Positions 1 to 13,118 of a stretch of DNA of 64,000 nt are shown piece by piece; the first letter of the stretch is position 1, and each line of letters begins with the position of its first letter. Under the pieces are notes generated by a model that was given only the letters and a program-made list of their open reading frames with translations, did not search any database and had not been told where the DNA came from. This stretch comes from Dyella halodurans. GTDB lineage: Bacteria; Pseudomonadota; Gammaproteobacteria; Xanthomonadales; Rhodanobacteraceae. Position numbers and translations under genes: made by a program. The stretch covers positions 620,001 through 684,000 of the forward strand of contig NZ_JAPDPF010000001.1 in assembly GCF_026283925.1 (NCBI RefSeq), read 5' to 3'.

Positions 1-769
1 GCAGCCAGTAGCGCGCGAAAATCCTGCCGCCGTGCGCGCAGGTGGACTGCGCGATCTCGTTTTCGTGGTGCGGGAACTGCAAATCCACGCCGCCGGCGTG
101 GATGTCGATGGTTTCGCCCAGGTGCGCTTCGCTCATGGCCGAGCACTCGATATGCCAGCCCGGACGGCCACGACCCCAGGGACTGTCCCAGCCGGGCAGT
201 TCGGGCGTAGAGGGCTTCCACAAGACGAAATCGCCCGGACTCTGCTTGTAGGGGGCCACTTCGACGCGGGCGCCGGCGAGCAGCTCCTCCGGGTCGCGGC
301 CCGACAAGGCACCGTAATCGGCGTAGGAATCCACGTTGAACAGCACGTGGGATTCGGCCGCATAGGCATGCCCGCTGGCGATCAGCCGCTCGATCATCGC
401 AATGATCTGGGGCATGTGCGCCGTGGCGTGCGGCTCCACGTCCGGCGCAGCGATACCAAGCGCCGCCATGTCTTCGCGGTAGGCCTGCGTGTAGCGGCCA
501 GTGATGCTCTCGATGCCCACGCCCAGCTGCTGGGCGGCGGCATTGATCTTGTCGTCCACGTCGGTGATGTTGCGGGCGTAGACCACCTGGGGATAGTGGC
601 GGCGCAGCAGGCTCACCAGCACGTCGAATACCACCGGACCACGCGCGTTGCCGATATGCACGTAGTTGTAGACCGTGGGCCCGCACAAATACATCGTCAC
701 CCGGTCGGGATCGAGCGGGGTGAACGTTTCAACGCGGCGCGTCAGGTTGTTGTGGAGCGAAATCGGCAT
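1..769 (-). CDS. cysS: Cysteinyl-tRNA synthetase, N-terminal part (runs off the window)
   Basis: Charges tRNA-Cys with cysteine in the cytoplasm. The reverse-strand frame opening at the ATG at 769 stays open to the window edge, so the 3' end is missing. About 256 residues are visible. Class I synthetase landmarks are present: [18 protein letters not shown] (HIGH-type motif as HIGN) near residue 28, GWHIECSAM, and [17 protein letters not shown], which carries zinc and cysteine ligands. The KMSKS loop would lie outside. The protein begins [14 protein letters not shown]; no better upstream start is seen in frame. It diverges from the envelope-protein gene at 1001 across about 230 bp. Identification is very secure. 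Confidence 0.97.
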
Positions 770-1000
770 CGGCAGGAAATCCGGGCGGTGGGAGCGGGCG
801 CAGGCTGGCGCAAGCCGGCCGCGCATCTTAACAAGCGGATGCCGCCGCCGCAGGCACCGGGCCGGAGAGACGTGGGCGAGCAGCGACGTTTGGTCGCAAG
901 ACCTTGGGTGAGTTCTAAGCGTCGATTCAGTGTGAATTTGTTGCAATGGATGCTATGAGGCGCATAGATGCGCCCAACTTGCCCCTGAGCGGAGGTCGTA

Positions 1001-1576
1001 ATGACCAAGATGGTGTTTCCCGCGCTGGTGCTAGCCCTGATGGCCTGTGGCCTGACGGTTACCAGCGCATTTGCGCAGGATGCGCGGTACCAAAGTCAAA
1101 ATCCGAATCAAAATCAAGCCCAGAACGACGACAACACCCACTACGGCTGGGCTGATGTATTGCGCGTCGATCCCGTCTACGGGGTCGCCCGCACCGAGGT
1201 GCCGCGCCAGGAATGCTACGACCAGCAGGTCGTGCAGACCGCGCCGCCGCAGGGCAGCGCAGCCGGCACCATCCTGGGCGCCGTCGTGGGCGGCGTGCTG
1301 GGCAGCACCGTCGGCCACGGCAGTGGGCGCACCGCCGCCACCGTGGTGGGTGCGGTCGCCGGTGGCGCGGTCGGCAACAGCGTGTCGGCCGCGGGCGGTG
1401 GCGAGTATCAGAGCACCGAGACCCATTGCCGCCAGGTGGCTGCGGTGAGCGAGCAGCGGCGCATCATGGGGTACGACGTGGAGTATCGCTATCGCGGCGA
1501 GGTCTATGTTTCCCGGCTCAACTACGACCCGGGCGAGCGCCTGCGGGTGCGGGTAAGCGTCGCGCCCGCCGACTGA
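1001..1576 (+). CDS. Glycine-zipper 2TM-domain envelope protein
   Basis: 191 residues. It starts with a signal peptide (MTKMVFPALVLALMACG..., likely cut after AFA near residue 25). A Q/N-rich spacer follows, then at about residues 85-130 a glycine-zipper segment (GTILGAVVGGVLGSTVG and AATVVGAVAGGAVGNSV) of the Rickettsia 17-kDa antigen/glycine-zipper 2TM type, and a polar C-terminal domain. Proteins of this family sit in the outer membrane or periplasm; their function is poorly defined. The start is supported by GGAGGT about 8 nt upstream of the ATG. A UUCG-capped terminator follows at 1605, so it appears to be a single-gene unit. Family is clear, role unknown. Confidence 0.85.
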   Translation: MTKMVFPALVLALMACGLTVTSAFAQDARYQSQNPNQNQAQNDDNTHYGWADVLRVDPVYGVARTEVPRQECYDQQVVQTAPPQGSAAGTILGAVVGGVLGSTVGHGSGRTAATVVGAVAGGAVGNSVSAAGGGEYQSTETHCRQVAAVSEQRRIMGYDVEYRYRGEVYVSRLNYDPGERLRVRVSVAPAD

Positions 1577-1604
1577 GACTTGCTGCCCGATCCGTTCAGC
1601 TACG

Positions 1605-1627
1605 CCGCCGCCTTCGGGCGGCGGTTT
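1605..1627 (+). terminator. Intrinsic terminator after the glycine-zipper gene
   Basis: A perfect 8-bp stem, CCGCCGCC with GGCGGCGG, is closed by a TTCG tetraloop and followed by TTT. It lies 29 bp after the stop at 1576. Its presence means the second terminator at 1851 is not needed for this gene. Confidence 0.8.
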
Positions 1628-1713
1628 GCTGTGGGGGCCCCGCCAGCCCATCCTGCTTGTTGCATGGCAGCGAAAATCCCGTCATGATGCGCGTTCAACC
1701 ACCCGGAACCCCC

Positions 1714-1818
1714 ATGTCCGCAGCCGTCTATACCGCCACCGTCCTTACCAGCGCCCGCATGGCTGCTGGCATGACGTCGCGTGCGCGCCGACCGCTGGTC
1801 CGACATTCGGCCGGGTAG
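1714..1818 (+). CDS. Putative arginine-containing leader peptide upstream of argF'
   Basis: A 34-codon ORF starting at ATG 1714, with GGAA five bases upstream. In-frame ATGs at 1684 and 1687 would give 44 or 43 residues. The C-terminal part reads TSRARRPLVRHSAG, with four Arg codons (CGT, CGC, CGA, CGA) within eight. The TAG stop at 1816 overlaps a segment that can pair with the 5' arm of the terminator at 1851. It is too short for an enzyme and its position is that of an attenuation leader peptide. Caution: Arg codons are common in non-coding frames of GC-rich DNA, so composition alone proves little. Confidence 0.4.
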   Translation: MSAAVYTATVLTSARMAAGMTSRARRPLVRHSAG

Positions 1819-1885
1819 GCTGTCGCACGCGTTTCATGTGTATCGACGACAAAACCCGGCCTGCAGCCGGGTTTTTTTGTTTTTG
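1780..1885 (+). promoter_or_regulatory. Candidate transcription attenuator controlling the arginine operon
   Basis: Two mutually exclusive pairings are visible. The terminator has a 10-bp stem, AAAACCCGGC (1851-1860) with its complement at 1866-1875, a 5-nt loop and a T-rich tail. The alternative pairs GGCCGGGT (1809-1816), at the stop codon of the leader ORF, with ACCCGGCC (1854-1861), the terminator's 5' arm. A ribosome at the stop would mask 1809-1816 and favour termination. A ribosome stalled at the Arg codons (1780-1803) would leave it free. A poor promoter candidate, TTGCAT (1660) and CATGAT (1683) spaced 17, lies upstream. The pairing is seen; the regulatory role is inference. Confidence 0.5.
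1851..1885 (+). terminator. Strong intrinsic terminator inside the argF' leader
   Basis: A 10-bp perfect stem with a CTGCA loop, followed by TTTTTTTGTTTTT. It stands 81 bp before the argF' start and about 275 bp after the previous gene, which already has its own terminator at 1605. This position suggests regulation of argF' rather than termination of an upstream gene. A second stem, GGTTGGCCCG (1903) with CGGGCCGACC (1933), lies between it and argF'. Confidence 0.8.
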
Positions 1886-1965
1886 GATTTTGTTTCGACG
1901 CGGGTTGGCCCGCCACTAGACCACCGGCCTACCGGGCCGACCGATTCGACAAAGGTATTCACGAG

Positions 1966-2973
1966 ATGACTCTTCGCCATTTTCTGACCACCCAGGACTA
2001 CAGCCGCGCCGAGATCGACGCGCTGCTGGAACAGGCGGCCGCCTTCAAGCGTTCCCCGCGCGGCCAGCAGCTGGCTGGCAAGTCGGTGGCGCTGATGTTC
2101 TTCAATCCTTCCATGCGCACGCGCACCAGCTTCGAGCTGGGTGCGTTCCATCTGGGCGGCCATGCGATCGTGCTGGCGCCCGGCAAGGACGCCTGGCCGA
2201 TCGAGTTCGAGGTGGGCAGCGTGATGGAAGGCGATACCGAGGAGCACATTGCCGAGGTGGCGCGCGTGCTGTCGCGTTATGTGGACCTGATCGCCGTGCG
2301 CGCGTTCCCGAAGTTCCAGGACTGGTCGGTCGATCGCGAGGACAAGGTGATCAAGGCGTTCGCGCAGTACGCGACGGTGCCGGTGATCAATATGGAGACC
2401 ATCACCCATCCTTGCCAGGAGCTCGCGCACGCTCTGGCGCTGAAGGAACACCTGGGCCATCTGCAGAACAAGAAGTACGTGCTCACCTGGACCTATCACC
2501 CCAAGCCGCTGAACACCGCGGTGGCCAATTCCGCCTTGCTGATCGCCACCAAGATGGGCATGGACGTGACCTTGCTATGCCCCACGCCCGACTACGTGCT
2601 GGACGAGCGCTACATGGAATTCGGCTATCAGAACGCCAAGGAAAACGGCGGTTCGCTGAAGGTCAGCCACAACATCGAGGAAGCCTATCGCGGCGCCGAT
2701 GTGGTCTACGCCAAGAGCTGGGGCGCGCTGCCGTTCTTCGGCAACTGGGAGCAGGAAAAGCCGATCCGCGAGGCGAGCCGCCACTTCATCGTGGACGAGG
2801 CCAAGATGGCGCTGACCAACAACGGTCTGTTCAGCCACTGCCTGCCGCTGCGTCGCAATGTGAAAGCCACCGATGCGGTGATGGATTCGCCTGCGTGCAT
2901 CGCCATCGATGAAGCCGAGAACCGCCTGCATGTGCAGAAGGCAGTGATGGCGTCGTTGATCGGTCAGCGCTGA
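1966..2973 (+). CDS. argF': N-acetylornithine carbamoyltransferase
   Basis: Transfers carbamoyl phosphate to N-acetylornithine, giving N-acetylcitrulline, in the variant arginine pathway of Xanthomonadales and some Bacteroidetes. The 335 residues match the Xanthomonas enzyme closely in length and content. The carbamoyl-phosphate loop SMRTRTS is at residues 49-55. HPCQELAHAL and the C-terminal HCLPLRRN motif are present, as are the acetylated-substrate features TWTYHPKPLNTAVANS and KSWGALPFFGNW. The ATG follows only a weak ribosome site (CACGAG). It is the first gene of the arginine/proline run, downstream of the candidate attenuator. argD is the one pathway gene missing from the window. Confidence 0.96.
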   Translation: MTLRHFLTTQDYSRAEIDALLEQAAAFKRSPRGQQLAGKSVALMFFNPSMRTRTSFELGAFHLGGHAIVLAPGKDAWPIEFEVGSVMEGDTEEHIAEVARVLSRYVDLIAVRAFPKFQDWSVDREDKVIKAFAQYATVPVINMETITHPCQELAHALALKEHLGHLQNKKYVLTWTYHPKPLNTAVANSALLIATKMGMDVTLLCPTPDYVLDERYMEFGYQNAKENGGSLKVSHNIEEAYRGADVVYAKSWGALPFFGNWEQEKPIREASRHFIVDEAKMALTNNGLFSHCLPLRRNVKATDAVMDSPACIAIDEAENRLHVQKAVMASLIGQR

Positions 2974-2991
2974 GTCGAGGCGCGATCACCC

Positions 2992-3615
2992 ATGTATATG
3001 CCGCCTTATTTCAAGGAAACGCGCAGCGAAGCGTTGCATGCGCTGATGCGCGCGTATCCGTTCGCGACGCTGGTAACGCATGGCGATGCGGGCCTCGGCG
3101 CCAATCATCTGCCGTGGGAGCTGGTCGGCGACCGCTTGCATGGCCACGTCGCGCGCGGCAACGAATTGGCGCGCGCCGATGGTGCGGAGGTGCTGTTGAT
3201 CTTCCGCGGGCCGGACGGCTATGTGAGCCCGAACTGGTATCCGAGCAAGCATGAGACCGGGCGCGAAGTGCCGACCTGGAACTACGCCGTGGTGCATGTG
3301 CATGGCCGCTTGCGCGTGGTCGAGGATCACACCTGGCTGCGGCAGCTGCTCGAGCGGCTGACCGATCGCCACGAGGCGGGCCAGCCCAAACCGTGGCATG
3401 TATCCGATGCGCCGGCCGACCATATCGAGAAGGCGCTGGGCGGCATCGTCGGTCTGGAAATCAGCGTCGAGCGCATCGAGGGCAAGTTCAAGCTGAGCCA
3501 GAACCACCCGGCAGCGAACCGCGCCGGCGTGGTCGATGGCCTGCGTCAGCGACGTGGCCGGGGCGACGCCGAGCTGGCGGATCTCATGGCTCTACAAGAG
3601 GAGAACAGGAAGTGA
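2992..3615 (+). CDS. PaiB-like FMN-binding negative transcriptional regulator family protein
   Basis: 207 residues opening MYMPPYFKETRSEALHALMRAYPFATLVTH, typical of the PaiB_2 family (Bacillus PaiB; FMN-binding split-barrel fold). NHLPWEL, the segment VSPNWYPSKHETGREVPTWNYAVVHVHG and the C-terminal KLSQN are family hallmarks. Despite the historical name, most members are flavin-binding proteins of unknown biochemical role. It lies 18 bp after argF', and its TGA overlaps the GTG of the OsmC gene, so it is transcribed within the arginine run. Nothing links it mechanistically to arginine synthesis. Confidence 0.88.
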   Translation: MYMPPYFKETRSEALHALMRAYPFATLVTHGDAGLGANHLPWELVGDRLHGHVARGNELARADGAEVLLIFRGPDGYVSPNWYPSKHETGREVPTWNYAVVHVHGRLRVVEDHTWLRQLLERLTDRHEAGQPKPWHVSDAPADHIEKALGGIVGLEISVERIEGKFKLSQNHPAANRAGVVDGLRQRRGRGDAELADLMALQEENRK

Positions 3616-4091
3616 GCAAGGGACATCAGCATCACTATAAGGTCGACGTGACGTGGACCGGCAACCAGGGCACCGGCACCAAGACCTATCAGGGCTATGG
3701 TCGCGAGCATGAGATCCGCATCGCCGGCAAGGCGGTGCTGGCGGGTTCGTCCGATCCCACGTTTCGTGGCGACGCCAGCAAGCACAATCCGGAAGACCTG
3801 CTGGTGACCTCGCTGTCCACCTGCCACATGCTGTCGTACCTGCACCAGGCCGTGCTGGCCGGCGTCGTCGTCACCGCTTATGAAGACCATGCCGAAGGCA
3901 CCATGGAAACCGACGCGCATGGCGGCCGTTTCCTGGAAGTAGTGCTGCACCCGGTGGTGACCATCGCGGCCGGCAGCGACCCGGCCAAGGCCGAGGCGGC
4001 GCACGAGCCCGCGCACCATGCCTGCTTCATCGCCAACTCCGTGAATTTCCCGGTGCGCTGCGAACCGCGCATCGTCGTCGAATCTGTTTGA
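3612..4091 (+). CDS. OsmC/Ohr family peroxiredoxin-like protein
   Basis: 159 residues from a GTG at 3612 that overlaps the preceding stop (GTGA), with the good ribosome site GAGGAG upstream. The longer open frame back to 3393 is out of character and antedates the real start. The OsmC fold signature is clear: [19 protein letters not shown] with Cys71, and [14 protein letters not shown] with Cys138. These are the two conserved thiols used to reduce organic hydroperoxides. A third Cys is at 150. It probably detoxifies peroxides in the cytoplasm; its place in the arginine run is apparently incidental. Confidence 0.88.
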
Positions 4092-4129
4092 CCTTATTTG
4101 TTCTTATTACTTCTTCAGGATTGCCAGTC

Positions 4130-5320
4130 ATGAGCAAAGATATCGTTCTCGCCTTCTCCGGTGGCCTCGACACCAGCTTCTGCGTGCCTTACCTCAAGGA
4201 GCGCGGCTGGGCCGTGCACACCGTGTTTGCCGATACCGGCGGCGTCGATGCCGAGGAGCGCGCGTACATTGAGCAGCGCGCCAAGGAGCTGGGCGTTGCC
4301 ACCCACGTCACCGTCGACGGTGGCCCGGCCATCTGGGAAGGCTTCGTCAAGCCGTTCGTGCAGGCCGGCGAGGCCTATCAGGGCCAGTACCCGTTGCTGG
4401 TGTCCGACCGCTACCTGATCGTCGATGCGGCGATCAAGCGTGCCGGCGAGCTCGGTACCAAGGCGATTGCGCATGGCTGCACCGGCATGGGCAATGACCA
4501 GGTGCGTTTCGACCTGGCAGTGAAGGCGCTGGGCGACTATCAGATCGTGGCGCCGATCCGCGAGATCCAGAAAGAGCACACCCAGACCCGCGCCTACGAG
4601 CAAGCCTATCTGGAAGAGCGCGGCTTTGAAGTGCGCGCGAAGCAGAAGAGCTACACCATCAACGAGAACCTGCTCGGCGTGACGCTGTCCGGTGGCGAGA
4701 TCGATCACTGGAAGACCCCGGGCGAAGGCGCCCGCGGCTGGTGCAAGCCGCGCGCCGAATGGCCGTCCGAAAAGCTGTCGGTGACGATCGGCTTCGTCAA
4801 GGGCGAGGCCGTGTCGCTCAATGGCGAAAAGCTGCCGGGCGCCAAGCTGCTGGCCAGGCTCAACGAGTTGTTCGCGCCCTACGGCGTGGGCCGTGGCATG
4901 TATACCGGCGACACCACCATCGGCCTGAAGGGTCGCATCGTGTATGAAGCCCCGGGCCTGATTTCGCTGCTGACCGCGCATCGTGCGCTGGAAGAAGCCG
5001 TGCTGAGCAAGCAGCAGAACCGCTTCAAGCCCGACGTGGCGCGCAAGTGGGTGGAAGTGGTGTACGAAGGCTTCTACCACGACCCGATCAAGACCGATCT
5101 GGAGGCCTACCTGAGCTCCAGCCAGAGCTGCGTCAATGGCGAAGTCGTGCTTGAAACCTCGGGCGCCCAGGTCACCGCGGTGGAAGTGCGTTCGCCGCAC
5201 ATCCTCAATGCCAAGGGCGCGACCTATGCGCAGTCGGCGGACTGGGGCGTGGAGGAGGCCGAGGGCTTCATCAAGCTGTTCGGCATGAGCAGCACCTTGT
5301 GGGCTGAGATCAACCGCTGA
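4130..5320 (+). CDS. argG: Argininosuccinate synthase
   Basis: Condenses citrulline with aspartate using ATP, giving argininosuccinate. 396 residues from ATG 4130, chosen because the protein starts [17 protein letters not shown] exactly like Xanthomonas ArgG and AGGA lies 9 nt upstream. The open frame's earlier TTG at 4088 is not convincing. The ATP pyrophosphatase loop SGGLDTS is at about residues 10-16. [13 protein letters not shown] and [19 protein letters not shown] are typical of the Xanthomonadales subtype. It lies 38 bp after the OsmC gene and in the same direction as argE'. Confidence 0.96.
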
Positions 5321-5371
5321 TTTGGGAGGGCGGGATCCAGTGACCTGCGCGGTGACGCGTAGAGGCGCTGG

Positions 5372-5391
5372 ATTCCTGCCTGCGCAGGAAT
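5372..5391. repeat. Short palindromic REP-like repeat
   Basis: ATTCCTGC, a 4-nt loop CTGC, then GCAGGAAT form a perfect 8-bp hairpin in the 136-bp argG-argE' gap. It is followed by GACGG. Dispersed palindromes of this type are frequent between genes in Xanthomonadales. It may dampen or stabilise the operon transcript here, with no T-tract to make it a full terminator. Confidence 0.6.
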
Positions 5392-5456
5392 GACGGTTTC
5401 TCTGACGACTCGCGGACCCCGAGAGGGGGCGCGGCAAACATCACCAGACGGATGGT

Positions 5457-6557
5457 ATGAGCGGATTACTGGACGACACTCTCAGACACCTTAGGGCGCT
5501 GGTCAGCTATGACACGCGCAATCCGCCGCGCGACATCGGCACGGGCGGCATCTTCGATTATCTGCGCGACAACCTGCCCGGCTTCGACGTCACCGTGACC
5601 GATTTCGGCGCAGGCGCCGTGAACCTGTACGCGGTGCGCGGCAAGCCGAAGGTGCTGTTCAATGTCCACCTGGATACCGTACCCGACTCGCCGCACTGGA
5701 CGGCTGATCCACACGTGCTGCGTGTGACAGAAGACCGCGCCATCGGCCTTGGTGCCTGCGATATCAAGGGCGCCGCCGCCGCCCTGGTGGCGGTGGCCCA
5801 TGCCACGCAAGGCGACATGGCGCTGCTGCTTTCCACCGACGAAGAAGCGAACGATGCGCGTTGCATCGCCGGCTTCCTCAAGGACAAACCGGCTTATGAC
5901 GCCGTCATCGTGGCCGAGCCAACCAAGGGCGAGGCGGTGCTGGCGCATCGGGGCATCCATTCGGTGCAGATGCGTTTCAAGGGCAGTGCCGGCCATGCCT
6001 CGGGCGAGCAGAAGCCCAGCGACAGCGCGCTGCACCAGGCGATGCGCTGGGGCGCGGCAGCACTGGATTTCGTCGAGAAGCAGGCGCACGAGCGCTTTGG
6101 CGGGCTGACCGGACTGCGCTTCAACATCGGCAAGGTCGAGGGCGGCATCAAGGCCAATATGATTGCGCCGACGGCCGATATCCGTTTCGGTTTCCGTCCG
6201 CTGCCGACCATGGCGCCCGACCGGATGCTGGAAACGTTCCGCACCCTGGTCGAACCGCAGCCGGTGGAATTTGGCGAGACCTTCCGCGGCGATTCGCTGC
6301 CGGCCGGCGACACCGCCACCGCCGAGGCACGCCGTCTGGCGGCGCGCGACCTCGCGGACGAGTTGAACATTCCCATTGGCAATGCCGTGGACTTCTGGAC
6401 CGAAGCGGCCCTGTTCTCCGCGGCCGGCTACATCTGTTTCGTCTACGGCCCCGGCGACATCGCGCAGGCGCACACCGCCGACGAATGGGTCGCCCTCAGC
6501 CAGCTCCAGCATTACGCAGAAACCATTTACCGGATCATTGATCGTGGAAGCGCATAA
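5457..6557 (+). CDS. argE': N-acetylcitrulline deacetylase (M20 metallopeptidase family)
   Basis: Removes the acetyl group from N-acetylcitrulline to give citrulline, the step that follows ArgF' in this pathway variant. 366 residues, as in Xanthomonas ArgE'. M20 zinc-site signatures are visible: [11 protein letters not shown] (residues about 64-74), [22 protein letters not shown] with the catalytic Glu pair, [14 protein letters not shown] and, near the end, [20 protein letters not shown]-type dimerisation motif [10 protein letters not shown] is present. The start lies 136 bp after argG and the 3' end overlaps the argB start by 14 bp, which suggests translational coupling. Confidence 0.95.
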
Positions 6558-7860
6558 GCACACTCGCAAGACCATCGTCCGCCTGCTTTCGAGCATGGGC
6601 AGCGCGAAGGAAATCCAGCAATACCTCAAGCGTTTCTCGCAGCTCGATGCCAAGCGCTTCGCTGTGGTGAAGGTCGGTGGCGCCGTGCTGCGCGACGATC
6701 TGCCTGCGCTGACGTCCTCGCTGACCTTCCTGCAGCAGGTCGGCCTGACCCCGATCGTGCTGCACGGCGCCGGCCCGCAGCTGGACGAGGAGCTGTCGGC
6801 CGCCGGCATCGAGAAGCAGACCGTCAATGGCTTGCGCGTGACCACGCCGCAGGCGCTGGCGATCGTGCGCAAGGTGTTCCAGGAGCAGAACCTGCGTCTG
6901 GTCGAGGCCTTGCAGACCATGGACACGCGCGCCACCTCGGTGCTGTCAGGCGTGTTCACGTCCACCTACCTCGACCGCGACACCTACGGCCTGGTCGGCA
7001 AGGTGAGCCGGATCAACCTGGCGCCGATCGAGGCCAGCCTGCGCGCAGGTTCCATCCCGGTGATCGCCAGCATGGGCGAGACGGAAGAGGGCCAGATCCT
7101 CAACGTCAATGCCGACTTCGCCGCGAATGAACTGGTGCGCGTGCTGCAGCCGTACAAGATCGTGTTCCTGACCGGCACCGGCGGCCTGCTGGACGACAAG
7201 GGCCGCATCATCGACTCGATCAATCTCAGCACCGAGTTCGAGCACCTGATGGCGCAGCCGTGGATCAATGGCGGTATGCGCCTGAAGATCGAGCAGATCG
7301 CCGATCTGCTGGCCGATCTGCCGCTGACCTCGTCGGTGTCGATCACCCAGCCGGCCGAACTGGCCAAGGAGCTGTTCACCCACAAGGGTTCGGGCACCTT
7401 GGTGCGCCGCGGCGAGAAGGTGCGTCGTTTCGAGTCGTGGGAAGGCATCGAGCTGGACCGCATGCGCAACCTGATCGAATCCAGCTTCGGCCGCACCCTG
7501 GTGCCGGATTATTTCGAGCGCACCAAGCCGTTCCGCATCTATGTCAGCGAGAACTATCGCACCGCGATGATCCTCACCATGGAAGATGGCTTGCCCTACC
7601 TGGACAAGTTCGCCGTGCTGGACGATGCGCAGGGCGAGGGCCTGGGTCGCGCCGTATGGCAGGTGATGCGCGAGGAAAACCCGCAGTTGTTCTGGCGCTC
7701 GCGCCACGGCAACTCGGTCAATCATTTCTATTACGCCGAATCGGACGGCTGCCTCAAGCAGCCGCACTGGAAAGTGTTCTGGTACGGCCTCGACGACTTC
7801 GACACGATCGCCCGCTGCGTGGCCCATTGCGCCACGCGGCAGCCGACCCTGGTGGGCTGA
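6544..7860 (+). CDS. argB: Bifunctional N-acetylglutamate kinase/synthase
   Basis: Carries both the acetyltransferase (first) and kinase (second) steps of arginine synthesis. About 438 residues from GTG 6544 ([24 protein letters not shown]...), by alignment with Xanthomonas ArgB. TTG 6538 or ATG 6595 are alternatives. Residues about 35-290 form the amino-acid-kinase domain ([45 protein letters not shown]). The C-terminal ~145 residues form the vertebrate-like NAT domain ([21 protein letters not shown]). Such fusions are known in Xanthomonadales. The N-terminal 160 bp of the larger open frame overlapping argE' are not coding. Confidence 0.94.
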
Positions 7861-7863
7861 AAC

Positions 7864-8820
7864 ATGAGCACGAGCAAACAACGTATCGGTATCGTCGGCG
7901 CGCGCGGTCATACCGGCGCCGAGCTGATCCGGCTGGTGGCAGCGCATCCGGCGCTGGAACTCGCCTTCGTCTCCTCGCGCGAGCTGGATGGCCAGCGGGT
8001 GGCGGACCAGGTGGAAGGCTTCGTCGGCGAGTTGCGCTATGTGAGCCTCGATCCGGCGGCCGTGGCCGCACAAGGTGCAGACGTGGTGGTGTTGGCCCTG
8101 CCCAATGGCAAGGCGGCACCCTATGTCGAGGCCATCGACAAGGCCAAGCCGGAGACGCTGATCGTCGACCTGTCGGCCGACTATCGTTTCGACGAGCGCT
8201 GGTACTACGGCCTGCCGGAGCTGACCCGTGAACGCTGGCGCGGCGAGAAGCGCATCAGCAACCCGGGTTGCTATGCCACCGCCGTGCAGCTGTCCATCGC
8301 ACCGCTGAAGGACCTGCTGGCGGCGCCGCCGGTGTCGTTTGGCGTGTCCGGTTATTCCGGCGCGGGCACCACGCCGTCGGACCGCAATGATCCGGAGAAG
8401 CTGCGCGACAACCTGATGCCGTATTCGCTGACCGGCCATATGCACGAGAAGGAGGCCAGCCGCCATCTCGGTGTGCCGGTGGAATTCATGCCGCATGTGG
8501 CGCCGCATTTCCGTGGTCTTACCGTCACCACCAATCTCTACCTGGTGCGTCCGATCAAGCGCGAGGACGTGATCGCCCGTTTCCACGGCGCCTACGAAGG
8601 CGAGAAGCTGGTGCGCGTGCTGGACGAGGCGCCGTGGGTCAGCCAGATCGCCCACCAGCATCATGTGGAGATCGGTGGCTTCGCGGTGTCCGCCGACGGC
8701 AAGCGCGTGGTGGTGGTGGCGACGCTGGACAACCTGCTCAAGGGCGCCGCCACCCAGGCAATGCAGAACATCAATCGCGCGCTTGGCGTGGACGAATACA
8801 CGGCGATCCCGCGACCGTGA
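7864..8820 (+). CDS. argC: N-acetyl-gamma-glutamyl-phosphate reductase
   Basis: NADPH-dependent reduction of N-acetylglutamyl phosphate to the semialdehyde. 318 residues. The dinucleotide-binding loop [13 protein letters not shown] is at 12-24. The catalytic cysteine is Cys136 in [23 protein letters not shown] and [12 protein letters not shown] are consistent with type 1/2 ArgC of the Xanthomonadales form. It starts 3 bp after the argB stop, clearly co-transcribed. The stop is 58 bp before proS. Confidence 0.95.
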
Positions 8821-8878
8821 CGCTCACGCGCGCGTCGTCGTAGGGAAAGCCAACAACCATTCGTCCGGGGTCATCGTC

Positions 8879-10216
8879 ATGCGTCTGTCCCGTTATCTGT
8901 TGCCCACCTTGAAGGAAACGCCCGCCGAGGCGCAGATCGTCTCGCACCGGCTGATGCTGCGTGCGGGCATGATCCGCCAGGAGGCCGCCGGGATTTATGC
9001 CTGGTTGCCGCTGGGCCTGCAGGTACTGCGCAAGATCGAGCGCATCGTGCGCGAGGAAATGCAGCGCGCCGGTGCGCTCGAGTTGCTGATGCCGACGCTG
9101 CAACTCGCCGACCTGTGGCGCGAGAGCGGTCGCTACGATGCCTATGGTCCGGAGATGCTGCGTATCCGCGACCGCAACGAACGCGAGCTGCTGTACGGGC
9201 CGACCAACGAGGAGATGGTCACCGAGATCTTTCGCGCAAACGTGCGTTCCTACCGCGACCTGCCGATGAATCTCTATCACGTGCAGTGGAAGTTCCGCGA
9301 CGAGCAGCGGCCGCGCTTTGGGGTGTTGCGCGGGCGCGAATTCCTGATGAAGGATGCCTATTCGTTCGATCTCGACGAGGCGGCCGCCCGTCGCTCCTAC
9401 CAGCGCATGTTCGTCGCCTACCTGCGCATGTTCTCCCGCATGGGACTGACGGCGATCCCCATGCGCGCGGAAACCGGGCCGATCGGCGGCGACCTCTCGC
9501 ACGAGTTCATCGTGCTGGCCGATACCGGCGAGTCGGACGTCTATTGCGATCGCCAGTTGCTCGAGCTGCCGGTACCGGATGACCAGGTGGACTACGAGGG
9601 CGACCTCGCCGCGCTGATTGCGCCTTGGACACAGCCCTATGCCGCCACCGAGGATGTACATGACGCCGAGCGCTTCGAGCGCGAGGTGGCGGCGGAGCGC
9701 CGACTGCATACGCGAGGCATCGAAGTCGGGCAGATCTTCTACTTCGGCACCAAGTACGCCGAGCCGATGAAGGCGTTGATCACCGGCCCGGACGGCGTGG
9801 AGCGGCCGATCCATGGTGGCTCCTATGGCGTGGGTGTTTCGCGACTGGTCGGGGCCATCATCGAGGCCTGTCACGACGAGCGCGGTATCGTCTGGCCCGA
9901 CGCGGTGGCTCCGTTCCAGGTCGGCCTGATCAACCTGCAGCAGGGCAACCTGGATACGGATGCCGCCTGCGAGACCCTCTACGCTCGACTCACGCAAGCC
10001 GGCATCGAGGTGTTGTACGACGACACCGGTGCGCGGGCCGGCGGCAAGTTCGCCACTATGGATCTGATCGGCTTGCCGTGGCAGCTGGCGGTCGGGCCGC
10101 GCGAGCTGAAGCATGGACAGGTTGAATTGAAGCGACGCGCCACCGACGAGCGCAGCGTGCTCACCCTCGACGACGCGATGGCGGCCCTGCTCGATGCGCG
10201 CCCGCGACGCGATTGA
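8879..10216 (+). CDS. proS: Prolyl-tRNA synthetase, short form without the INS editing domain
   Basis: Charges tRNA-Pro with proline. 445 residues from ATG 8879 ([19 protein letters not shown]); the in-frame sequence back to 8663 overlaps argC and is not coding. Class II motifs are clear: [18 protein letters not shown] (motif 1), [28 protein letters not shown] (motif 2; split over residues about 138-166) and [15 protein letters not shown] (motif 3). The C-terminal anticodon-binding domain follows. Typical gammaproteobacterial ProRS is about 570 residues with an insertion (INS) domain between motifs 2 and 3; here only a short linker is present, as in alphaproteobacterial enzymes. This suggests acquisition from that lineage or a family-specific form. 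It sits between argC and argH. Confidence 0.93.
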
Positions 10217-10278
10217 ATTCCGTTTTTGCTTAGGCGCAGCGACTGCGCTCTCATCCATCGATACAGCAGGACACCAAC

Positions 10279-11574
10279 ATGACTCAGCCGCTCTGGCAAA
10301 AATCCAATATCAAGATCGACGCCCGCATCATGAAGTTCCTGGCCGGTGACGACGTCCTGCTGGATCGCGAGTTCTTCCTCTACGACGTCACCGCCAGCAA
10401 GGCGCATGTGGAAGGACTGGCGAATATCGGCGTGGTCAGCGCGGACGAGGCCACCGCACTCAAGCGTGAGCTGGATGTACTCGCCGAGGACTTTCGCGCC
10501 GGCAGCTTCGTGCTCGACGATCGCTATGAAGACTGCCACTCCGCGATCGAAGCACGTCTCACCGAGCGCCTCGGCGATGCCGGCCGCCGCGTGCATACCG
10601 GCCGCAGCCGCAATGACCAGATCCTGGTGGCCACGCGGCTATGGCTGAAGGACCAGCTGGCCACGCTGGAGCAGCACTGCCGCGCCATCGCCGCCGTCTG
10701 CCTGGACCGTGCGGCCCAGCCGGCGCTGCCGCTGCCGGGCTATACCCACCTGCAGCGCGCGGTGGTGTCGTCCACCGGCATGTGGTTTGCGGGCTTTGCC
10801 GAGGGCTTTATCGACAATGCGCTGCGTGCGCGCCAGACCGCGGCCCTGATCGACGCCAATCCGCTGGGCACCGCCGCCGGCTATGGCGTGAATATGAAGC
10901 TTGACCGCGAGCACACGACGGCGGCATTGGGCTTTGCACGCATGCAGATCTCGCCGATCTATGCCCAGTTGTCCCGTGGCAAGTTCGAAATGGCCGTGCT
11001 CGAAGCCATCGCCGGCGCGCTGCTGGACGTGCGTCGCCTGGCCTGGGATTTGTCGCTGTTCACCACGGCGGAATTCGATTTCGTGAAGCTGCCGTCCGAA
11101 TACACCACGGGCAGCTCGATCATGCCGAACAAGCGCAACCCGGACGTGGTCGAGCTGCTGCGCGCCAGCTACGCCAGCGTGGCCGCGGCGCGCACCGAGA
11201 TCGAGCAGCTGCTGTCGCTTCCTTCGGGCTACCAGCGCGACCTGCAGTTCTCCAAGGGCTCGCTGTTCCATGGCTGTCGCCATGGCCTGGCCGCGCTGGA
11301 GCTGATGCCGGACCTGTTGGCCCGCATGACCTGGAATGAACCGGCCATGCGCGCCGCGATCGAGCCGGCCATGTACGCCACCGACGTGGCGATCGAGCAG
11401 GCGGCGGCGGGCGTGCCGTTCCGCGACGCCTACCGCGCGGCGGCCGATGCGGCGGCTTCAGCCGGCGCAGGCCGGACGCCGGAGGGCAGCCTGGCGGCGC
11501 GCGTGTCACCGGGTTCGGGCAACGACCTCCGCCTGGACGAATTGCGCGCTAGACTCGGCCATCTGGACGGCTAA
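10279..11574 (+). CDS. argH: Argininosuccinate lyase
   Basis: Splits argininosuccinate into arginine and fumarate, the last pathway step. 431 residues. The superfamily signature [13 protein letters not shown] lies at about residues 277-289. [10 protein letters not shown] and GYTHLQRAV supply further active-site residues. A good ribosome site (GCAGGA) precedes ATG 10279. It follows proS by 62 bp and is followed after 3 bp by a cupin gene. No truncation or frameshift seen. Confidence 0.95.
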
Positions 11575-11577
11575 ACG

Positions 11578-11946
11578 GTGAATGGCATGGGGACCGTCAG
11601 TACGGGGAATGCCGAACATTATCGCTGGGGGCAGGGCTGCGACGGCTGGCACCTGCTGGCCGGCGACGACCTGAGCGTGATCGAGGAGCGCATGCCGCCC
11701 GGTGCCGCCGAAGTGCGCCACCGGCATGCGCGCTCACGGCAGTTTTTCTATGCCCTCGAGGGCACGCTGACCCTGGAGCTGGAGGGCGAGGTTCACCAGC
11801 TGCAGCAGGGACAGGGCCTGCACGTGCCTGCAGGAGCAGCCCATCAGGCCCGTAACGACGGTCGTGCCGATGCGCGCTTCCTGGTGGTCTCCGCGCCCCG
11901 AAGCCATGGTGATCGCATCGCGGCGCCCCGGGAGGCCGAGGCATGA
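11578..11946 (+). CDS. Small single-domain cupin protein
   Basis: 122 residues from GTG 11578 (an ATG at 11587 is equally possible). The two cupin motifs are visible: RHRHARSRQFFYALEGTLTLELEG (split across residues about 42-65) and GQGLHVPAGAAHQARN. The His/Glu pattern suggests a bound metal. Substrate unknown. Its stop overlaps the proB ATG (ATGA at 11943), so it is translated with the arginine/proline genes. It could be a stray passenger or an accessory enzyme; nothing in the sequence decides. Confidence 0.82.
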   Translation: MNGMGTVSTGNAEHYRWGQGCDGWHLLAGDDLSVIEERMPPGAAEVRHRHARSRQFFYALEGTLTLELEGEVHQLQQGQGLHVPAGAAHQARNDGRADARFLVVSAPRSHGDRIAAPREAEA

Positions 11947-13118
11947 GCATCGCGTCGGCACGGCCAGCCTTACCTGAGCAGCCGTTGCCGGCCTGGCGAC
12001 GCGCCGTGTTGAAAGTTGGCAGCAGCCTGCTGGCGGCCGACGGGGGCGGGCTGAATGCCCGCTACGCGGAGGCCTTGGCGGGCTTTATCAGCGCCAGTCG
12101 CGAGCAGGGCCGGGAGGTGATCCTGGTCTCTTCCGGCGCCGTGGCGGCAGGGCGGGCCTTGCTGCGCCAACACGTGCCGTCCGGCGGCGACCTGGCCGCC
12201 CGGCAGGCGCTGGCGGCGCTGGGCCAAGCCCCGATGATCGCCTTATGGCAGTCGCTCGGCACGCGGCCGGTGGCGCAGGTGCTGCTGACGCACGATGACT
12301 TGCGTAACCGCCGCCGTTACCTCAATGCGCGAGCCACCTTGCGCGAGTTGCTGGCGCTCGACGTCCTGCCCGTGGTCAACGAGAACGACACCGTGGCGGT
12401 GGACGAGCTGAAGCTCGGCGACAACGACAATCTAGCTGCCATCGTCGCGGCCCTGGTCGATGCCGACCTCTTGTTGATCGCCTCCGACGTCGATGCGCTC
12501 TACAGCGCGGACCCGCGCCGCGATCCTGCCGCCGTGCCGATCACCCGGGTGGATGCGCTCACTCCCGAGCTGCTGGCCATGGCCGGTGGCAGCGGCAGCA
12601 GCGTCGGCACCGGTGGCATGCGCACCAAATTGGAGGCGGCCACCAAGGCGGCCGGGGCTGGCATCGCCACCGCGCTGTTCAGCGGTCGCGACGAGGCGAC
12701 GGTCAGCGCGCTGGCGCGCGGTTTTCTGCGCGGCACCCTGATTGCCGCCTGGGGGACGCGCATGCAGGCGCGCAAGTACTGGCTTCGCCATGCGCCGGCC
12801 GCACCCGGACGTATCCGCGTGGACGCAGGCGCCGCACGTGCGCTCGCGGGCGGTCGCGCTTCCTTGCTGCCGGGCGGTGTGCTCGGGGTCGAGGGGGACT
12901 TTCAGCGTGGCGACCTGGTGGAAATTGTCGACGAGGCCGACCAGCCCGTGGCGCGTGGCCTGTGCCAGTACGGGGCGACAGAAGCCCGGCGCCTGGCGGG
13001 TCGGCATAGCCGCGAGATCGAACAGGTATTGGGCTATAGCTATGGCGCCGAGGTCGTGCATCGCGACGACCTGGCCAGCCTGGCCCACGCCGAAATGACC
13101 GGGGAACGCACGGCATGA
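11943..13118 (+). CDS. proB: Glutamate 5-kinase
   Basis: Phosphorylates glutamate in the first step of proline synthesis. 391 residues: an amino-acid-kinase domain at about 20-260 ([62 protein letters not shown]) and a C-terminal PUA domain from about residue 285 ([15 protein letters not shown]...). The PUA domain is typical of enteric-type ProB with feedback inhibition by proline. The first ~17 residues are a non-homologous leader, so a start a little downstream is possible. Overlaps the cupin gene and proA by ATGA, a tightly coupled trio. Confidence 0.95.

Follow-up and report, generated by a model that had tools for sequence, protein, structure and literature searches.

The question raised by this locus is how arginine synthesis is controlled in an order mostly without the repressor ArgR. 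The ArgR C-terminal domain (PF02863) was present in 8 of 121 genomes of the order, all from a single family (f12), and in 8 of 14 controls; it was not found in the window's genome (G000) or in the 112 others of the 121 searched. Families are given here as anonymous labels f1–f12, f1 being the window's family, which holds Dyella. Within the window, the 64,000-nucleotide stretch of Dyella halodurans DNA analysed here, positions 1651–1966 cover the stretch between a glycine-zipper protein gene (1001–1576), located 5' of the leader region, and argF', encoding N-acetylornithine carbamoyltransferase (1966–2973; NF003384.0, 609.6 bits). The sequence-only reading had proposed an arginine attenuator at this position, and that proposal is supported by computation, which established the ORF with its Arg codons and the two hairpins, found them conserved and co-varying, and showed predicted antiterminator formation to depend on where the ribosome stands. 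Very probably the argF' operon is under ribosome-mediated transcription attenuation, with arginine as the signal. argF' is the first gene past the attenuator, and argG, an acetylornithine-deacetylase-type gene, an acetylglutamate kinase gene with a NAT domain and argC lie downstream (4130–8820); gene order and common strand suggest that these arginine genes are co-transcribed with argF'. An FMN_bind_2 gene and an OsmC-like gene (2992–4091) are situated between argF' and argG, within the arginine gene cluster. No T-box was present among six Rfam matches (E up to 5) in window positions 1–12000. Sub-threshold hits to Leu_leader (1766–1878, 20.7 bits, cut-off 50), rnk_pseudo and P9 were set aside as generic attenuator or terminator likeness.

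All elements from the promoter to argC are on the forward strand. A putative promoter at 1658–1688 (TTGTTGCAT ... CATGAT, with the -10 at 1683–1688) was read directly and would place the transcription start near 1695; a similar promoter-like element recurs in many relatives among those listed, and a sigma-70 consensus scan gave no promoter at 1658–1688. The leader peptide ORF (1714–1818) consists of 34 codons encoding MSAAVYTATVLTSARMAAGMTSRARRPLVRHSAG and ends at the stop codon TAG (1816–1818). An ORF of 34 to 44 codons had been proposed; the shorter form, starting at the conserved ATG 1714, is retained, but the longer one is not, as the in-frame ATG 1684 falls in the putative -10 region and its extra residues are not conserved. 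The control codons R23 (CGT), R25 (CGC) and R26 (CGA), with A24 (GCG) between, occupy 1780–1791. The count of four Arg in eight codons at 1780–1803 (CGT GCG CGC CGA CCG CTG GTC CGA) is correct as given, but the fourth (R30, 1801–1803) is not conserved, being Arg in 55 of 128 distinct core leaders, and was dropped as a control codon. Segment 2 (GGCCGGGT, 1809–1816), the 5' arm of the antiterminator, has as its last base the first base of the leader stop codon and, as had been noted, is exactly complementary to segment 3 (ACCCGGCC, 1854–1861), which is common to antiterminator and terminator and has its last base in the terminator loop. The antiterminator hairpin formed by segments 2 and 3 (1805–1865) has a predicted energy of -27 kcal/mol, better than all 200 shuffles. 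The intrinsic terminator hairpin (1851–1875) has the 10-bp stem described earlier, a 5-nt loop and a U-rich tail (1876–1885), with a predicted energy of -15.5 kcal/mol (z -3.4) that 0 of 200 shuffles matched in stability; its placement "just before" argF' was loose, since 90 nt separate its end from the ATG. The upstream gene's UUCG-capped hairpin is also where it was reported (1603–1623), with a poor U tract. A possible 1:2 protector hairpin over the Arg codons (1770–1838) is predicted at -36 kcal/mol, with 4 of 200 shuffles equally good; it is uncertain, as double changes in its helix did not exceed slid controls.

In the proposed mechanism, RNA polymerase would transcribe the leader during translation of the 34-codon peptide by a ribosome. 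When Arg-tRNA is scarce the ribosome would stall at CGU, CGC or CGA (R23–R26) and leave segment 2 free, which would pair with the emerging segment 3 and thereby block the terminator. When arginine is ample, the ribosome would reach the stop codon within segment 2 and cover that segment, segment 3 would pair with segment 4, and transcription would end before argF'. The leading edge of a ribosome lies approximately 12–13 nt past the first base of the A site. With this general footprint, a ribosome decoding R26 in its A site should protect RNA up to about 1801, with 1809–1816 left free; a stall at R30, which is not conserved, would already mask part of 1809–1816. We infer that the ORF is translated, that ribosomes stall on it, that transcription is terminated in the cell and that the system responds to arginine. 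The earlier idea that a stalled ribosome frees segment 2 was upheld in folding predictions for 57 representatives hand-picked from 204 leader loci. With segment 4 absent, segment 3 was predicted to be mostly in the antiterminator in 56/57 when the ribosome occupied the cluster's first or last Arg, in 9/57 when it was placed at the stop codon and in 42/57 with no ribosome, the clearest contrast being that between the stalled ribosome and the ribosome at the stop codon. Once the whole RNA was made, the terminator dominated in 57 (stop codon), 57 (no ribosome) and 54 (stalled) of the 57. The terminator is therefore favoured at equilibrium even with a stalled ribosome, so the switch must be kinetic, and since the antiterminator formed without a ribosome in 42/57, the untranslated default is not clearly "off".

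The arrangement is widespread in the order. An ArgF' scan gave 80 named loci, mostly from Dyella, Rhodanobacter, Frateuria and Luteibacter, and a leader with the RARRP motif was present in 79 of them, the other (L042) being cut by a contig end. Leader-presence frequencies rest on loci fetched by ArgF' alone (the window, L001–L080 and L152–L181); a leader was present at 106 of these 111 argF' loci, 90 with one common peptide core and 16 with unrelated peptides. Those 16 belong to distant families and have an Arg-codon cluster in the same layout. The leader preceded argF' in 26 of 30 f3–f12 genomes viewed singly with ArgF' (f3 3/3, f4 7/8, f5 3/3, f6 0/1, f7 2/2, f8 6/6, f9 2/2, f10 2/3, f11 1/1, f12 0/1). 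The f4 locus without a leader begins at its contig end; the f12 ArgF' match is just 42% identical, and no terminator was found before that locus. Loci L164, L177 and L181 are not cut by a contig end and have no leader. At L164 (f6) and L177 (f10) argF' is without such a leader or terminator, and no ArgR domain was found in the sampled genomes of f6 and f10. The core peptide was common to 10 of the 26 f3–f12 leaders (f3 and f4), the other 16 being unrelated peptides with Arg clusters, for example NPRRRRVLQSTAG, PIRRRRRRDPALAGLFDL, GRRARRTRRPLLAG and VVVRRRRPLRQMELFG, each followed by a stop codon. When the ORF was chosen by its distance to the terminator, blind to Arg, an Arg-rich ORF was obtained at 16/16 distant loci, with a second ORF also offered in two of them; terminators were sought only close to the leader stop or beyond it. 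The lack of conservation in relatives that would have counted against the sequence-only reading was not seen: ahead of argF' they keep the leader with its Arg codons, the antiterminator arm and the terminator as one set.

A profile of 14 leader peptides, run on 299 genomes of the order, matched 179 at E <= 0.01. By hand count these included 76/76 f1 and 78/78 f2 genomes listed with argF', the position before argF' being checked for the listed loci alone. The remaining 25 matches (f3, f4, f5, f8, f9, f10 and f12) were weaker and part of them are probably due to chance. Family f2 is probably Xanthomonadaceae, because it holds the Xoo5 hits above the Rfam cut-off that are described below. In 274 genomes of the wider class, a leader-peptide search gave matches at E >= 3.6e-4 only, the exceptions being the window's own genome and two f2 genomes; unrelated Arg-run leaders would escape this search. 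No similar leader was seen by eye at carA in 7 genomes. The full set of 209 loci adds 27 found with the Xoo5 model, 32 with the leader profile and 39 from argF'-listed genomes, most of these last also being listed for the leader; codon and pairing counts use this whole set, with identical sequences counted once.

R23, R25 and R26 were Arg in 128/128 distinct core leaders, a count in which the collecting motif fixes M20–R26 almost wholly, although no f1–f4 locus with a complete leader region was lost to it. These residues were written solely CGT, CGC or CGA, with CGG, AGA or AGG in 0 of 384 cells. R26 was CGA in 124/128 distinct core leaders and in 71/74 of the ArgF'-only subset; CGA is rare in the argF' genes of L001–L080 (23 of 1429 Arg codons, with CGG, AGG and AGA together contributing 186 of 1429). 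In Salmonella, tRNAs are shared among CGU, CGC and CGA, and CGA was the slow one among them in a his-leader assay, as described in the available text of PMC4046918. The leader ORF is conserved and variation in its core is mainly synonymous, as expected under coding selection.

Judged from the alignment, the f1–f4 peptide is conserved beyond what simple Arg counting needs, and its conserved block ending Arg-Arg-Pro hints at help from the nascent chain. A stronger form of this idea is that the sequence [ST]AR.A[AS]GMTSRARR, followed by P, slows or arrests the ribosome at Arg-Arg-Pro, either unaided or when arginine or a pathway metabolite is sensed, with Arg-tRNA charging only part of the signal. 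This would account for a conserved block that spans approximately 12 residues before P27 and ends at that residue. It would also fit the codon-position entropies of the 109 of 128 core leaders with standard spacing, which are 0.049/0.000/0.796 for A17–R26 versus 1.514/1.240/1.106 for residues 28–32. All four ACN codons occur at T21, which is Thr in every one of the 128 leaders, and the spacing from block to stop is identical in 128 of 147 distinct core leaders. However, P27 is replaced by Leu, Cys, Arg, Asn or Thr in 11/128, and distant families use unrelated peptides with plain Arg runs, so that the basic function needs only Arg codons; we regard arrest as a possible but doubtful explanation. 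A bolder reading, put forward tentatively and with the odds against it, takes a plain Arg-run attenuator as the ancestral state, from which the leader of f1–f4 (f1 with the window, f2 with the high-scoring Xoo5 hits, and f3 and f4) became an arrest-peptide/attenuator hybrid in the place of ArgR. In such a hybrid ...AAGMTSRARR, the slow CGA codon and the following Pro would constitute a programmed pause, with Arg supply or a pathway metabolite as the releasing signal. The gradation among leaders, with plain Arg runs at one end and a fixed peptide at the other, could show the origin of nascent-chain sensors from ordinary attenuators. Conservation at the amino acid level might also reflect a second function of the leader peptide in trans, for which peTrpL of Sinorhizobium, as presented in the available text of PMC7298713, is a precedent; this is improbable, as f1–f4 conservation is confined beside the control codons and absent in distant families.

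Judged by match to the Rfam model, the Xanthomonas "sRNA Xoo5" of RF02242 is the argF' leader, with its end a few bases short of the terminator stem. The model (124 positions) scored 126.2 bits in L081 and 119.2 bits in L082; it lies in the same place upstream of argF', and the f2 hits contain the same leader ORF. The window gave 30.1 bits, below the gathering cut-off of 50, and with L081 and L082 passing this cut-off the window is therefore a diverged counterpart and no member by Rfam's rule. Xoo5 of Xanthomonas oryzae was published as an sRNA, with the 5' end determined by 5' RACE and the 3' end taken from clones, and gave bands on Northern blots at approximately 130 and 100 nt, both present in early growth and only the shorter one later; in the available text of that paper, the main text does not contain the word "leader" (PMC3039613). 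The RF02242 alignment begins 2 nt before the leader ATG in the window and in G048, and the Xanthomonas leader RNA would likewise start 2 nt before its ATG if model position 1 is the RACE end, as the equal lengths suggest. The terminated leader in L081 is expected to be approximately 155 nt, and the published Xoo5 sizes (124 nt; bands of ~130 and ~100 nt) are shorter than this and fit only roughly. A -10-like hexamer is found approximately 7–10 nt before the leader ATG at L081, L082, other f2 loci, L165 and L173. The leader transcript may be leaderless at the f2 loci, L165 and L173, and the Xoo5 5' end suggests likewise. Several f1 leaders have a 5' UTR with GGAA before the ATG. Detection by Northern blot and 5' RACE (in the available text of PMC3039613) and the Rfam annotation are what would be expected of an independent trans-acting sRNA whose position at argF' is incidental. 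We consider this highly improbable, since three above-cut-off hits lie directly upstream of argF', conservation falls on an ORF and on the alternative terminator hairpins, and target searches are reported for Xoo1, Xoo3 and Xoo4 only in the available text of the same paper. As a by-product of attenuation, the terminated leader may act in trans.

The attenuator reading was further examined through the pairing of its alternative hairpins. Of 163 distinct leaders, 140 have the standard layout, in which the stop codon contributes its first base as the last of segment 2; some of the 23 leaders of other layout pair elsewhere. Segments 2 and 3 paired by Watson-Crick or wobble pairs in 136 of the 140 standard-layout sequences (fully Watson-Crick in 119, with G-U in 17, mismatched in 4, at L167, L175, L192 and L213), a proportion biased towards pairing by the layout filter (segment 2 G[CT][CTA]GG[GC][TC], segment 3 [AG]CC[CT][AG]G[CT]). 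The wobble base of the penultimate codon, left free by this filter, was C-G in 113, T-A in 21, T-G in 3 and mismatched in 3, and L179 had a third sequence set, GCCAGGT with ACCTGG. Segment 2, segment 3 and the terminator strands co-vary as three strands. Helices were counted in an alignment of 128 fixed-spacing sequences from the 147 distinct core leaders, with helices slid by 1–2 columns as controls. The outer antiterminator helix was kept in 985/1024 cells with 17 double-change cells (slid controls 27–58%, 0–4), and the terminator helix in 1201/1227 with 29 (41–69%, 0–5). The inner antiterminator stem was kept in 1093/1345 with 59 double changes (17–49%, 43–55) and the 1:2 helix in 1751/2098 (83.5%) with 13 (18–54%, 5–21). 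Double changes were clearly above slid controls only for the outer antiterminator and the terminator, and the 1:2 protector helix, although predicted in the window, thus lacks covariation support and was not kept as a conserved element; its presence is uncertain.

In the 57 representatives, the best duplex between leader end and terminator arm beat dinucleotide shuffles at p<0.05 in 40 and fell short of this in 17, the sequences being related and the p values not independent. It lay within 8 nt of the stop in 51/57 when sought from 24 nt before the stop onwards. A chance control comprised 55 other short-ORF/terminator pairs from both strands of the window and loci L001–L080. A 7-nt Watson-Crick match between stop region and terminator arm occurred in 0/55 of these pairs, and in 77/79 argF' leaders in the same scan; four Arg in eight codons occurred in 6/55 and 57/79, respectively. 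The 6/55 figure is what could be said for a chance placement of the upstream gene's terminator beside a random Arg-rich frame of a GC-rich genome, a reading made negligible by the absence of stop-region complementarity in the controls, by conservation and covariation across several families, and by Arg clusters at two f9 loci whose leaders are visibly AT-rich.

The attenuator is of a known kind, and what is new is its arginine specificity, the near-absence of ArgR and the conserved peptide. As in the his, trp, leu, thr, ilv and phe attenuators, a cluster of codons for the end product in a leader ORF and a strand common to antiterminator and terminator precede a biosynthetic operon. Unlike these, the argF' leader is specific for arginine, has its stop codon inside the antiterminator arm in the standard layout, is without a covariation-supported protector helix, and in f1–f4 has a peptide conserved beyond the control codons. 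The Salmonella speF leader ORF orf34 is likewise short, with consecutive Arg codons through which translation reads arginine; in contrast to the argF' leader its targets, within polyamine synthesis, are Rho-dependent termination, the decay of the mRNA and the translation of speF, and it does not work via an intrinsic terminator before an arg operon, according to the available text of PMC6386406. The Pseudomonas carA leader resembles the argF' leader in that a terminator and a short transcript precede a gene serving both arginine and pyrimidine synthesis, and a leader peptide is reported in P. aeruginosa, but the available text of PMC4997734 ascribes the attenuation to pyrimidines and the arginine control to the ArgR protein. 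ArgR/AhrC also exerts feedback control of arginine synthesis, but as a DNA-binding protein. In the list given by the available text of PMC1262725, histidine, threonine and phenylalanine have attenuators, and tyrosine and arginine have T-boxes; the word arginine is absent from the main text of PMC2965389. Searches of open-licence PMC papers, most of them represented by titles and the starts of abstracts, showed no bacterial arginine transcription attenuator. If the attenuator is real, arginine joins the amino acids read by leader-peptide transcription attenuators, arginine-synthesis control in an order mostly without ArgR has a possible answer, and Xoo5, published as an sRNA family, is re-assigned to the attenuator leaders. 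Genome annotation in a large bacterial order would also gain a feature at the argF' locus.

At L175, a leader segment is doubled upstream of argF', the first copy being followed by N, and this may be an assembly artefact. Between terminator and argF', palindromes GCGGATCCATCCGC and CCGGCCATCCATGGCCGG recur with variations at L016, L022, L049, L069, L080 and other loci; in these Rhodanobacter-type loci they possibly represent a REP-like element.
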